From positions 1-64,000 of the forward strand of contig DAHVDE010000115.1 in assembly GCA_027313705.1 (NCBI GenBank): DNA of 64,000 bases, read 5' to 3'. This DNA comes from Actinomycetota bacterium. Lineage in GTDB: Bacteria > Actinomycetota > Actinomycetes > Streptosporangiales > Streptosporangiaceae. This document shows, in pieces, positions 2,987 through 8,490 of the stretch. Every line of letters starts with the position of its first letter. Position 1 is the stretch's first letter. The notes under the pieces were generated by a model. It did not search any database, was not told where the DNA came from, and saw nothing but the letters and a program-made list of their open reading frames with translations. A program made the translations under genes and the position numbers.

Positions 2987-5092
2987 CTAGGCCGGCAGAT
3001 CCGCGCCGCCTGGCTGGTCAGCGGAGACCTTGAAGATATGGGCTGGTGAACTTCCAGGGTCCAGACGAACGTAGTTAGCCTCTCCCCAACGGTAAGACGC
3101 CCCCGTGAGTTCATCGGTTACCGTGAAACCCGCTGCGACGTCAATGCCGAGCGCAGCACCGTCCAGCCAGATCGTTGCCTCGCGCGGCAGGTGCGGATCG
3201 AGGTTGACCACGACGAGAACCGTGTCGTCGCCAGTGACGCCGGTTGCCGACGCACCTACTCTCTTAGAAAAGCACAGAATCTCCGCGCGGTCCGGGAAAT
3301 GGAAGCGTAGGTTGCGGAGCTGCATAAGAGCTGGGTGTGACCGTCTGATGACATTGAGTCGCGTGATGAGGTCGGAGATGGTGAGGTTGAGCCGCTTCGC
3401 GGCCTCCCAGTCGCGCGGCTTGTACTGGTATTTCTCCGAGTCCAGGTACTCTTCGCTGCCCGGCCGCAACGGCGTGTTCTCGCAGAGTTCGTAACCGGAG
3501 TAAACCCCCCAGGAGGGCGAGAGCATCGCCGCGAGCACGGCCCTGACCTTGAACGCCGCCGGCCCGGCATGCTGCAGGTAAGCGCCAAGTATGTCCGGTG
3601 TGTTGACGAAGAAGTTGGGCCGCATGTATGCCGCGGCAGGGCCGGCCAGCTCCTTCAGGTACCCGGTCAGTTCCTCGGCCGTGTTCCGCCAGGTGAAGTA
3701 CGTGTAGGACTGGTGGAAGCCGATGACCGCCAGGGCGCGCATCATCGCCGGCCTGGTAAAGGCCTCGGCGAGGAATAGCACCTGCGGATCTGTCCTGGCC
3801 ATTTCGGCAAGCAGCCGGTCCCAGAACGGCAAGGGCTTGGTATGCGGGTTGTCGACCCTGAACACGGTGACACCGTGGCTGATCCAGTGCCTGACTATCC
3901 GCACGACCTCCTGGTAGATGCCTTCCTGGTCGTTGTCAAAGTTCAGCGGGTAGATGTCCTGGTATTTCTTGGGCGGGTTCTCGGCATAGGCGATCGTGCC
4001 GTCCGCCCTGGTGGTGAACCACTCAGGGTGCTTGCCGACCCAGGGATGATCGGGCGAGGCCTGGAGGGCGAGATCCATCGCGACCTCGAGCCCGAGCCGC
4101 CTGGCGCGCGCGACGAACGCATCGAAGTCCTCGATCGTGCCGAGGTCGGGATGGATCGCGTCGTGGCCGCCCGCTGGCGCTCCGATGGCCCAAGGGGAGC
4201 CTGGGTCGGCCGGGCCGGCGAGCAGCGAGTTGTTCTTTCCCTTGCGAGCGGTCGTGCCGATCGGATGCACCGGGGGCAAGTAAACGACGTCGAAACCCAT
4301 CTCGGCGATAGCGTCGAGCCTGAGCGCCGCTGTCGCGAACGTGCCTGACACCGGCTTGGCGCGGCCGAGCGGATCGACCTTGGCCCCTTGCGACCTGGGA
4401 AAGAACTCGTACCAGGCACTGAATAGCGCCCGCTGCCTGTGCACGATCAGCGGGCACCAGTCTGAATAGGTCATCAGGTCGCGGAGCGGGAACTCGGTGA
4501 GTGCTTGCATCACCCTGGCGGTAAAGGCAGTGCCGAGACGTTCAACGCCTGAGCGGCTTTGGTCCCTGAGCCCGGCCGCCGCCGACTCGAACAGCTTGCG
4601 AGCCGCGTTTGCGCCGCGCCGGAGCTGCGGGCTCGAGCCGTTCGCGCCCGCTTCGCGGGCGGCCTGCCTAGCCTGCTTGGCGGCACGGTCGAAAAGCAGG
4701 GCGCCCTGCGCCAGCATGAGCTCTACGTCCTGGCCTATCGGCACCTTGATCGCGCTATCGTGCCGCCAGTGCGCGTATGGGTCACCCCAGGCTTCGACCC
4801 GGAAATGCCAGAGTCCTTCGCCAGTCGGGGTGACATCCGCGCCATAGCGGTCAGAGCCTTCCGCGAGCTCGCGCATCGGGCACGGCCGCCCCGTCGTCCC
4901 CGCGGGATCGCGCAAGACCGCGTGGGCGCCGAGCATTTCGTGTCCCTCGCGGAACACCGTCGCCGTGACCTGGAAGGTCTCGCCAGCTACCGCCTTGGCT
5001 GGGCGCCTGCCGCAGTCGACCTGTGGTTCAACGTCGAGTATCGGGATCCTACCGATCACCACGGAAAAGTACCCGTCCCCCCCAGCCCCCAT
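2987..5092 (-). CDS. glgE: Alpha-1,4-glucan:maltose-1-phosphate maltosyltransferase
   Basis: GH13_3 enzyme that extends alpha-glucan with maltose units from maltose 1-phosphate. From an ATG at 5092 the protein is 701 residues, near the family length. The frame is open for 175 more codons upstream, but that part translates a Pro/Arg/Thr-rich repeat tract and is not credible coding sequence. GTG codons at 5062 and 5059 are alternative starts. The N-terminal beta domain contains PAKAVAGETFQV and WHFRVEAWGDP. The catalytic nucleophile is Asp in VFRVDNPHTKP (about residue 414), the acid/base is Glu in FLAEAFTRP (about 443), and the third Asp is in NTPDILGAYL. It is the first gene of a glgE–treS unit, divergent from glgP. 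Its upstream DNA reads as G-rich tandem repeats on the coding strand. Confidence 0.95.
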   Translation of the reverse strand: MGAGGDGYFSVVIGRIPILDVEPQVDCGRRPAKAVAGETFQVTATVFREGHEMLGAHAVLRDPAGTTGRPCPMRELAEGSDRYGADVTPTGEGLWHFRVEAWGDPYAHWRHDSAIKVPIGQDVELMLAQGALLFDRAAKQARQAAREAGANGSSPQLRRGANAARKLFESAAAGLRDQSRSGVERLGTAFTARVMQALTEFPLRDLMTYSDWCPLIVHRQRALFSAWYEFFPRSQGAKVDPLGRAKPVSGTFATAALRLDAIAEMGFDVVYLPPVHPIGTTARKGKNNSLLAGPADPGSPWAIGAPAGGHDAIHPDLGTIEDFDAFVARARRLGLEVAMDLALQASPDHPWVGKHPEWFTTRADGTIAYAENPPKKYQDIYPLNFDNDQEGIYQEVVRIVRHWISHGVTVFRVDNPHTKPLPFWDRLLAEMARTDPQVLFLAEAFTRPAMMRALAVIGFHQSYTYFTWRNTAEELTGYLKELAGPAAAYMRPNFFVNTPDILGAYLQHAGPAAFKVRAVLAAMLSPSWGVYSGYELCENTPLRPGSEEYLDSEKYQYKPRDWEAAKRLNLTISDLITRLNVIRRSHPALMQLRNLRFHFPDRAEILCFSKRVGASATGVTGDDTVLVVVNLDPHLPREATIWLDGAALGIDVAAGFTVTDELTGASYRWGEANYVRLDPGSSPAHIFKVSADQPGGADLPA

Positions 5093-5115
5093 GCACCCGG
5101 GGTCACACTTCCCCC

Positions 5116-5199
5116 CGTCCCCGCGCCCCCGTCCCCGCGCCCCCGTCCCCGCGCCCGCGTCCCCGCGCCCGCGTCCCCGCGCCCCCGTCCCCGCGTCCC
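5116..5199. repeat. 14-bp tandem repeat, six units
   Basis: Six consecutive units of consensus CGTCCCCGCGCCCC, with G/C or T changes in the last positions. On the minus strand, which is the sense strand for glgE, this reads as many runs of three to five Gs (GGGG-ACG-GGGG-CGCGGGG). It would be able to fold as a G-quadruplex in DNA or in the 5' leader of the glgE transcript. The tract ends 24 bp upstream of the chosen glgE start. Confidence 0.85.
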
Positions 5200-5217
5200 C
5201 GTCCCTCGTGGCCGCGT

Positions 5218-5775
5218 CCCCACGTTGCGGGGTTGTGGGTGTCAGGGTGCGCACGTTGCGGGGTTGCGGGGGTCGGCGGGGTGGGGGAGCCGCGCTGTGT
5301 GTGTCAGGAGATGCGGGCAGGCGGATGTAGTTTCCCGGCCGGGGGTGATCTGGGTTCCTGGTGGGCGGCGGGTGTGTTGCTGAGTGTGGCCGCCCGCTCG
5401 GTTTGGGGAGGCTTGCTGCTTGCCACCGGAAGAGCTCGGGTTCTGCGGGCGCCGGCCGGGGTTGCCGGCTGGGGTGGTCCCGGAGCCCGCGTTGCGGGGG
5501 TTCTGGTCCTGCGCTGGCCCGGCTGCGGTCCCCACGTTGTGGGGTTGCGGGTGTCAGGGTGCGCACGTTGCGGAGTTGTGGGGGTTGGGGCTTGGGGGTG
5601 CCCGTGCGTGTGCCCACGTTGCGGGGTTGCGGGGGTTCTGGTCCTGCGCTGGCCCGGCTGCGGTCCCCACGTTGTGGGGTTGTGGGGGCTGGGGTTTCGG
5701 GGGTGGCCCGTGCGGGTGCCCGCGTTGCGGGGGCTGGGCTTGGGGGTGGCCCGTGCGGGTGCCCGCGTTGCAGGG
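5218..5775. repeat. Interspersed hairpin repeats (CCC-R-C-GTT-G-Y-GGG), about nine copies
   Basis: Copies centre on GTT at about 5224, 5254, 5491, 5536, 5564, 5618, 5671, 5724 and 5767. Four are perfect inverted repeats: CCCGC-GTT-GCGGG at 5486–5498 and 5719–5731, and CCCCAC-GTT-GTGGGG at 5530–5544 and 5665–5679. The two perfect forms differ by a paired change (G:C to A:T), which keeps the stem. The other copies have one or more mismatches. Copies are often followed by a G-rich tail such as GGTTG. Confidence 0.8.
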
Positions 5776-5865
5776 GTTGGGCGGGGGGCGGCGCTGGTCA
5801 AGAGCAGGTATCGGGCTGCCGGTTGGGGATGCTAGATCGTCTATCACGCATTAAGGTCACTCCCC

Positions 5866-8490
5866 GTGAGAGCTATCCGACGGTTCACCATCCAACCCGC
5901 GCTGCCCGCGCAGCTGGCGCCGCTTCGCACCTTGATGCTGAATTTGCGCTGGTCGTGGCATGGGCCGACCCGCCAGTTGCTGGCCGAGATCGACCAGGTC
6001 GCGTGGGAGAGCAGCGGGCACGATCCCGTCGCGATGCTGGCGCTTGTGTCGCCGCAGCGCCTGGTCGCGCTCGCCTCTGACGAGGATTTCCTGCGCAGGC
6101 TGGGAGCGGCCGTTGACGAACTGAACGGATACCTCACCGGTCCGCGCTGGTATCAGAATGCAGGCCAGGCCGGGTCGGGCCCGGCGGCCATTGCCTATTT
6201 CTCGCCTGAGTACGGAATCACGGCGGCGTTGCCGCAGTACTCGGGCGGGCTCGGCATACTGGCTGGAGACCACCTCAAGTCAGCTAGCGATCTCGGGGTG
6301 CCTCTGATCGGGGTCGGGTTGTTCTACCGGCACGGTTACTTCACTCAGTCGCTGTCACCTGAGGGCTGGCAGGCCGAGCGCTATCCGGCCTCAGACCCGG
6401 CGGGCTTGCCCGTCGCGTTGCTGCGGGATTGCGCCGGGGCTACGGCCAAAGTTAGCGTCGGCCTGCATGGCGGCGGCGAGCTTGGCGCGCAGATCTGGGT
6501 GGCCGAGGTCGGGAGGGTGCCGTTGCTCTTGCTCGACACCTACATTGAGGACAATGACCCGGTATCGCGGGAGGTCACCGACCGCCTGTACGGCGGCGGC
6601 AGCGAGCACAGGCTCAATCAGGAGCTGCTGCTCGGCATCGGCGGAGTGCGCGCGGTCAGGAAGTACTGCGAGATCACCGGTCATCGCCAGCCAGAGGTCT
6701 TTCACACCAACGAAGGCCACGCCGGCTTCCTTGGGATCGAGCGGATCAGGGAGTACCTGGCCGAAGGGGCGAACTTCGCCGAGGCGGTCGCGCTGACGCG
6801 GGCGGGCACGGTGTTCACCACGCACACTCCGGTGCCGGCCGGCATCGACAGGTTTGAGAAGGAACTGATCGAGCTTCAGTTCGGTCCAGACGGCGGCGAA
6901 CCCGGCCTGCCGGTCGACCGCGTGCTTGCGTTCGGCGCTGAGACGTATCCAGGCGGCGACGAGAACGTATTCAACATGGCCGTGATGGGGATGCGGCTGG
7001 CGCAGCGGGTCAACGGGGTCAGCAAGCTGCACGGCCAGGTCAGCAGGGAGATGTTCACCGGGCTCTGGCCAGGTTTCGACACAGCCGAGGTGCCGATCGG
7101 CTCGATAACCAACGGAGTGCACGCTCCGAGCTGGGTAGCCAGGGAGATCCTGAGCATCGCGCAGAACGGCCGCCAGGCCGGTGACCCGCAGTGGCTGGCC
7201 GACGACGACGCAGCCTGGGACCTGGTCGCGGCCGACCCGGTCCGCGTTTTCGAGATCAGGCGCACCCTTCGGGCCAGGCTGGTAAGGCACGCACGCGCCA
7301 GGCTGCGGGCCTCCTGGCGGCTGCGCGGCGCCTCGGAGGCCGAGCTTTCCTGGATCGGCAATGCTCTTGACGAGAACATCCTCACGATCGGCTTCGCCAG
7401 GCGCGTTCCCTCGTACAAGCGGCTCACCATGATGCTGCACGATCCGCAACGGCTGACCGATCTGCTGCTCGATCCGCAGCACCCGCTCCAGATCGTCATC
7501 GCGGGCAAGGCACACCCGGCCGATGATGGCGGCAAGGCGCTCATCAAGCGGATGGTCAAGTTCGCCGACGACCAGGCGGTGCGGCACAGGATCGTATTCT
7601 TGCCCGACTACGACATGGAGCTCGGCCGGATCATGGTGCAGGGTTGTGACGTCTGGCTGAACAACCCGCTGCGGCCGCTTGAGGCATGCGGTACCTCGGG
7701 AATGAAGGCGGCGCTGAACGGAGCGCTCAACCTGTCGATTCTCGATGGCTGGTGGGACGAGTGGTTCGACGGCGAAAATGGCTGGGCCATGCCTTCGGCT
7801 GACTCGGTGACCGACCAGGACAGAAGGGACGCCGTCGAGGCGTCCGCGCTCTACGACCTGCTCGGGCAGTCGGTGGCGCCATTGTTTTACGACCGCGGTG
7901 CTGATGGCATGCCTGGGCGCTGGCTGGAAATGGTCGCCCATACGCTGCGCGTGCTCGGGCCGAAAACCCAGGCGACGCGGATGGTGCGCCAGTACACCAC
8001 CGATCTCTACTTGCCCGCCGCGCATTCTTCTCGCAAGCTAGCCGGCGCTGAGGGCACTGCCAGGTTCGCCGGGGCAGCGGAGTTCGCTGCCTGGCAGGAG
8101 CGGGTCGAGCGGGCCTGGCCATCGGTCAATATCGAACTGGTCGAGACCGATGACGGCGAGCAATCGCCTGGCGAGAAGCTGGCCGTAAGGGCGGGGGTCG
8201 CGCTTGGTGAGCTGACGCCAGACGACGTGACCGTCGAAGCAGCGTACGGCCGGGTCGGAGCCGACGACGAGATCGTTGACCCTGTGCATTCTGAGCTAGT
8301 GCTCGAGTCGCAGCCAGGCGCCGACGGAGTGGCCTGGTACTGCGGCGAGGCAATGCTCGGCCAGCCTGGCCCCTTCGGGTACACCGTGCGGGTGCTGCCC
8401 AGGCACAGGCTGCTGACCGCGCCGGCCGAGCTCGGTCTTGTCCGGCTGCCCGTGGCGCCGGCCGGACTGGTGAACGGCGACCTGCGCTAG
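5866..8490 (+). CDS. glgP: Alpha-glucan phosphorylase (mycobacterial-type, DUF3417 N-terminus)
   Basis: PLP-dependent enzyme that releases glucose 1-phosphate from glycogen-like alpha-glucan. The protein is 874 residues from a GTG at 5866, with AAGG about 9–12 nt upstream. The N-terminus (about residues 1–110) is the DUF3417 type found in the long actinobacterial GlgP group. The centre holds YFSPEYGITAALPQYSGGLGILAGDHLKSASD and VFHTNEGHAGF. The PLP lysine is in EACGTSGMKAALNGALN, followed by LDGWWDEW. It is transcribed away from glgE/treS across the repeat spacer, so glucan synthesis and degradation genes share one divergent control region. Confidence 0.95.
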   Translation: MRAIRRFTIQPALPAQLAPLRTLMLNLRWSWHGPTRQLLAEIDQVAWESSGHDPVAMLALVSPQRLVALASDEDFLRRLGAAVDELNGYLTGPRWYQNAGQAGSGPAAIAYFSPEYGITAALPQYSGGLGILAGDHLKSASDLGVPLIGVGLFYRHGYFTQSLSPEGWQAERYPASDPAGLPVALLRDCAGATAKVSVGLHGGGELGAQIWVAEVGRVPLLLLDTYIEDNDPVSREVTDRLYGGGSEHRLNQELLLGIGGVRAVRKYCEITGHRQPEVFHTNEGHAGFLGIERIREYLAEGANFAEAVALTRAGTVFTTHTPVPAGIDRFEKELIELQFGPDGGEPGLPVDRVLAFGAETYPGGDENVFNMAVMGMRLAQRVNGVSKLHGQVSREMFTGLWPGFDTAEVPIGSITNGVHAPSWVAREILSIAQNGRQAGDPQWLADDDAAWDLVAADPVRVFEIRRTLRARLVRHARARLRASWRLRGASEAELSWIGNALDENILTIGFARRVPSYKRLTMMLHDPQRLTDLLLDPQHPLQIVIAGKAHPADDGGKALIKRMVKFADDQAVRHRIVFLPDYDMELGRIMVQGCDVWLNNPLRPLEACGTSGMKAALNGALNLSILDGWWDEWFDGENGWAMPSADSVTDQDRRDAVEASALYDLLGQSVAPLFYDRGADGMPGRWLEMVAHTLRVLGPKTQATRMVRQYTTDLYLPAAHSSRKLAGAEGTARFAGAAEFAAWQERVERAWPSVNIELVETDDGEQSPGEKLAVRAGVALGELTPDDVTVEAAYGRVGADDEIVDPVHSELVLESQPGADGVAWYCGEAMLGQPGPFGYTVRVLPRHRLLTAPAELGLVRLPVAPAGLVNGDLR

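Follow-up and report, generated by a model that had tools for sequence, protein, structure and literature searches.

The question raised by this locus is what the short GTT-centred repeats crowded between the divergent genes glgE and glgP are, and whether they owe their form to base pairing. The window, that is, the whole stretch of DNA analysed, corresponds to the 64 kb at the start of contig C59 in an assembly of 5.31 Mb (118 contigs, 98.87% complete). Within it, glgE (maltosyltransferase; 2987-5068, minus strand; PF11896 and PF21702), whose start was set by tblastn alignment to congeners, and glgP (alpha-glucan phosphorylase; 5866-8490, plus strand; PF00343 and TIGR02094) are separated by a divergent spacer of 797 bp (5069-5865), which is a lineage-specific expansion when compared to the congeners. 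The nine GTT-centred copies that an earlier note had described between these genes were confirmed, since CCCRCGTTGYGGGG occurs with up to two mismatches on the plus strand at 5219, 5250, 5486, 5531, 5562, 5613, 5666, 5719 and 5762. Six of the nine are exact, and both perfect forms are present, CCCGC-GTT-GCGGG at 5486 and 5719 and CCCCAC-GTT-GTGGGG at 5531 and 5666, while five of the nine copies carry a mismatch in the stem. Taken alone this is a weak pattern, with 11 matches at the same threshold in the whole window against 5.46 expected from shuffles; it is the clustering, together with the genome-wide result for a 21-mer given below, that indicates that the array motif is not due to chance.

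The array is more extensive than the span first outlined (5218-5775), which omits a C-rich tandem repeat at 5112-5221 and the rest of the spacer. This repeat, composed of 7.8 copies of the 14-bp unit CCCCCGTCCCCGCG on the plus strand, makes up the C-rich flank to the left of the array. It is followed, always on the plus strand, by a first doublet element of two units at 31-bp spacing (5218-5271; E 1.2e-14 with model R1 and 1.0e-11 with model R2), a 100-bp module (5379-5477) sharing 86% identity with a module within an array elsewhere in this genome, on contig C8, a half unit with the perfect CCCGC-GTT-GCGGG form (5485-5499), and a second doublet element (5530-5583; E 9.3e-16 with R1 and 5.2e-12 with R2). 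Two single units recognized by 21-mer matches then lie 51 and 53 bp from the unit before (5612-5633 and 5665-5686, respectively), and the array closes with another perfect CCCGC-GTT-GCGGG half unit (5718-5732) and a half unit with one mismatch (5761-5775). Model R1 is a sequence-only doublet model built from alignment A1, and R2 is a second model built from A2, which includes diverged copies. As full accounts of the array, a sigma-70 promoter or intrinsic terminator was rejected, as was an Rfam RNA, the only matches at gathering score in the window and seven element loci being tRNAs, and a plasmid or phage origin, in the absence of any match or viral contig.

Searches of the whole genome revealed that the repeat belongs to a dispersed family. 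Exact copies of the 21-mer CNCACGTTGYGGGGTTGYGGG number 22 in this genome, and allowing up to three mismatches raises the count to 149, compared with none in the reversed control; models R1 and R2 each returned 133 matches (at E up to 1 and up to 0.1, respectively). Among the matches listed, 86 are near full length, a few of them in overlapping registers, and they fall into 67 loci separated by more than 1 kb, so that one option raised in the earlier note, a REP-like family occurring elsewhere between genes, proved to be right. The core of the family is a 54-bp doublet, made of two 21-bp quasi-palindromic units (about CCCACGTTGTGRCRTYGTGGG) at 31-bp spacing in direct register, and when the two units are compared in that register their information profiles show correlations of 0.78 and 0.89. 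Spacings of exactly 31 bp were counted 45 times, the remaining spacings cluster at 41-45, 51-54 and 61-63 bp, and the 31-bp spacing is free of gaps in 39 of 39 A2 doublets, which were picked for that length. The 21-bp units are quasi-palindromic also in diverged solitary copies, several of which are matched by R2 on both strands, and a few whole copies are near-perfect palindromes (palindromes reaching 22 of 28 pairs were found only three times in 65 loci). Additionally, C6, G22, C33, C37, G49 and a few other positions are nearly invariant amid variable neighbours, even in the diverged copies, which were recruited by family-built models and are thus biased toward conserved positions.

Copies are 92% identical within loci and 68% between loci, as expected from local tandem amplification after dispersal. 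About 7 of the 67 loci are no more than 500 bp from the end of a contig (binomial p 0.0007), and contigs break at or near arrays at the ends of C20, C49, C67, C76, C78 and C89 and at the start of C96, where the arrays are probably longer than assembled; with contigs ending at arrays, the copy number of the family is probably underestimated. A distinct subfamily with an array of its own was observed further along contig C59 (77167-77526), in which GGAGCAGG and GGAGCTGGGG replace the usual unit ends.

The repeat is dispersed in its own genome and stands at background level in the relatives. The exact 19-mer was found in this genome alone among 60 genomes, four congeners included, and at up to one mismatch there are 94 matches here against 0 to 2 in each of the other 340 genomes of the bacterial family, the four congeners included, which is the level of the reversed control. 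Model R1 gave two weak partial matches in 59 relatives, and R2 gave weak matches only in 40 relatives (best E 3e-4 per genome). Scans of the collection with two degenerate patterns returned nothing, a weak result considering that the second pattern matches only 19 of 208 locus sequences, many of them overlapping or element-free.

The comparison of spacers also sets this genome apart. The four congeners and two further relatives have the same order of glgE and glgP, and the spacer of 797 bp compares with 56, 142, 150 and 177 bp in the congeners and 184 and 496 bp in the further relatives. Two spacers holding a solitary copy are likewise enlarged, the one between cobO and a DUF2550 gene (108 bp against 9 bp, 21 bp and an overlap in congeners) and the one upstream of xseA (114 bp against 51 and 6 bp), so that enlargement was observed at three sites, in a comparison based on four congeners of which two are 77% and 81% complete. 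The insertion junctions are unreadable because the congener spacers are too diverged to align. The enlarged spacers and the background-only matches in relatives indicate that the elements entered, or grew in, the lineage of this genome. The array, which adds some 600-700 bp between the divergent starts, probably influences glgE or glgP only incidentally, if at all. The xseA homologues of two congeners have in-frame stops (one in G004, two in G002) that may be assembly errors.

The genomic setting was examined with gene calls from our own hexamer scorer instead of an annotation, at 63 loci, that is, the 67 minus four (on C79, C87, C15 and one of those on C26). Sixty-two of the 63 loci lie outside called genes, 55 between two called genes and seven with a gene on one side. 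The sole in-gene copy, at L065:4291-4344, is in a gene for a major-facilitator transporter. The 55 element spacers comprise 18 convergent, 11 divergent and 26 tandem gene pairs, compared with 51, 54 and 226 among element-free pairs, which amounts to an excess of convergent spacers (18/55 against 51/331; Fisher p 0.004). In the tandem spacers the element runs 13 times with the gene direction and 13 times against it, and none of the 67 loci mixes strands. The genes near the elements are diverse and chromosomal, including recA, recQ, fumarase, nadA, xseA and a sigma factor, and a Pfam scan of 30 proteins from element loci, 26 of which matched some family, found no transposase. In the recA gene on contig C22 (L045:1628-3892), a LAGLIDADG endonuclease domain separates the RecA parts in the manner of an intein, and a doublet lies in the adjoining spacer.

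The elements also sit at a switch in base composition. Read on the motif strand, GC skew averages -0.21 before the element (negative at 38 of 48 loci) and +0.35 after it (positive at 46 of 48), the count being restricted to the 48 of 63 loci with sufficient spacer on both sides. This change from C-rich to G-rich is independent of gene orientation, extends about 140 bp each way, and does not appear in a set of 122 element-free spacers.

Altogether, we consider it likely that these repeats form a dispersed intergenic doublet family, restricted within the genomes searched to this species, which spread non-autonomously and was then amplified in tandem. Copy number, intergenic location, the enlarged spacers at the three sites compared with congeners, doublet structure, local amplification and absence from relatives are direct observations, and from them we infer that new sites may have been reached when a protein acting in trans transposed the non-autonomous element or copied it in some comparable way. 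Such a protein would read the sequence of the doublet and its half-site symmetry, and the doublet of about 54 bp would be copied into intergenic DNA in either orientation, beside unrelated genes. At some sites the copies have multiplied further as local tandem arrays, which gives rise to complex spacers like that between glgE and glgP. The candidate actor is not a Y1 (RAYT) transposase detectable with PF01797, which had no match in this genome (98.87% complete) and was positive in 5 of 14 control genomes. Besides, the uneven conservation along the element suits a selected bound site at least as well as neutral decay, with the reservation that selecting the copies on model score enriches for positions that are conserved.

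In terms of known classes, the family resembles non-autonomous repeats of the REP or MITE type, with tandem amplification in addition, but it is not a classical REP. It resembles MITEs in being small, non-coding, intergenic, dispersed and apparently non-autonomous, and single copies at three loci (on C115, C71 and C38) have perfect terminal inverted repeats of 12-19 bp; unlike MITEs, most copies have absent or weak inverted ends. The MIRU-type repeats of mycobacteria are intergenic, dispersed and locally tandem, features that the present family shares when set against this general description instead of the MIRU sequences, and on the same footing it differs in dispersing as a 54-bp doublet whose half-sites are symmetric. 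No earlier description of this family came up in the literature searched, which is weak evidence.

With REPs, REPINs and BIMEs the family shares short length, high copy number, extragenic location, quasi-palindromic sequence and restriction to a species, as well as a doublet that spreads as a unit, the clustering of near-identical doublets in tandem and frequent occurrence between convergent and co-directional genes (PMC3733652; PMC3116915; PMC2817692). REPs are described as palindromes of 20-40 bp, most with a GTAG or CGTC tag (PMC3733652), whereas the A1 and A2 consensus and rows of the present family start with CCCCAC and end with GTGGGG(GTT), without either tag when inspected by eye. The lack of a PF01797 match separates the genome from those with GTAG-type REPs; however, CGTC REPs are described in the same source as having no dedicated transposase, and therefore the missing Y1 protein does not exclude the CGTC type (PMC3733652). 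REPINs are inverted REP doublets (PMC3116915) and BIMEs are REPs in alternating orientation (PMC2817692), while the doublet described here is in direct register, with long-hairpin pairing at the level of shuffles, and its clusters do not alternate in orientation. The family also differs from all three classes in lacking compensatory changes. The words Actinobacteria, Actinomycet and Streptomyces do not occur in the text of PMC3733652.

A second reading, which we regard as unlikely but the strongest of the rivals, is that the units are binding sites of a dimeric protein, a regulator or nucleoid organizer, with two dimers on one face of the helix (31 bp being three turns) and the arrays acting as clusters of high occupancy. 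In accordance with this, the strongest conservation in diverged copies falls on positions that mirror one another inside a unit (C2/G22, C6/G18 and G10/C14; C33/G53 and C37/G49), the other positions do not covary, and the spacing is gap-free in the length-selected doublets, with the remaining spacings clustered as given above. On the other hand, the elements are absent from all relatives searched, they are indifferent to orientation and gene arrangement and adjoin unrelated genes, and the helical-phase signal is unspecific, as neighbouring periods did equally well or better and the distinct spacings gave p 0.52 (0.08 up to 66 bp). The helical phasing of the spacings is therefore suggestive only. 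A broader version, in which about 67 intergenic clusters of 21-bp dyad sites, three helical turns apart and with C-rich and G-rich flanks, would be served by one putative protein that both spreads the element and organizes or insulates the chromosome, seems improbable.

Transcribed hairpins, acting as terminators or stabilizing mRNA and kept for their base pairing, the last being what the earlier note proposed from the paired change (A-T to G-C) between the two perfect forms, are a reading that we judge very improbable. The pairing test sample comprised 143 units from 36 loci, 141 of them distinct. At the paired A/G and C/T positions of CCRC-GTT-GYGG, the 141 units gave A-T 73 times, A-C 36, G-T 17, G-C 10 and other combinations 5, and the two positions are independent (mutual information 0.006, equalled or exceeded in 433 of 500 shuffles; Fisher p 0.82). 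The changes thus behave as random, and the claim that they reflect selected base pairing is not borne out. The CCRC-GTT-GYGG hairpin was rejected, and so were the 21-bp outer stem, the inner linker stem and a single long hairpin spanning the doublet, in all of which pairing was no better than in shuffled columns. Three sets of helices on alignment A1 and a further two on A2 likewise fared no better than shuffles, RNAalifold predicted zero pairs on 36 doublets, and in 33 diverged copies the observed pairing was slightly below the shuffled. The sole contrary hint is a weak association between positions R2 and Y16 (Fisher p 0.034, uncorrected).

A symmetry is present on the larger scale of the 21-bp units, and 6 of 46 single copies fold at z of -4 or below (L169 at -9.3, L165 at -8.6 and L175 at -7.3, among them), but this differs from the stem drawn in the earlier note. 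The whole array folded no better than shuffles on either strand, and the 46 single copies had a median z of -1.5, which with 40-bp flanks became -0.45 against -0.29 in controls. Moreover, the enrichment between convergent genes would suit hairpins that end transcripts, and the C-rich then G-rich flanks would suit Rho-dependent termination; against this, 11 of the 55 sites, the glgE-glgP spacer included, lie between divergent genes, and neither a terminator-like site nor an Rfam match other than tRNAs was found. More generally, changes that look compensatory when only a few copies are compared can disappear once all copies are counted. Finally, a purely local minisatellite born of slippage in the glgE-glgP spacer, to which the tandem periods of 14, 43 and 51-53 bp would point, is scarcely credible as a full account, being refuted by the same doublet at 67 separate loci across the genome, and is still valid for the growth of arrays.

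The dispersed and locally amplified doublet family remains the preferred reading. The best descriptions of small interspersed repeats come from Proteobacteria, in which RAYT transposases are the proposed agents of their spread. A doublet that is present in many copies and restricted to one species, in a genome in which no Y1 transposase was found, implies another route for the spreading of short non-coding repeats. If confirmed, this family would offer a tractable case, with one sequence in about 85 copies, some of them in otherwise very short spacers.
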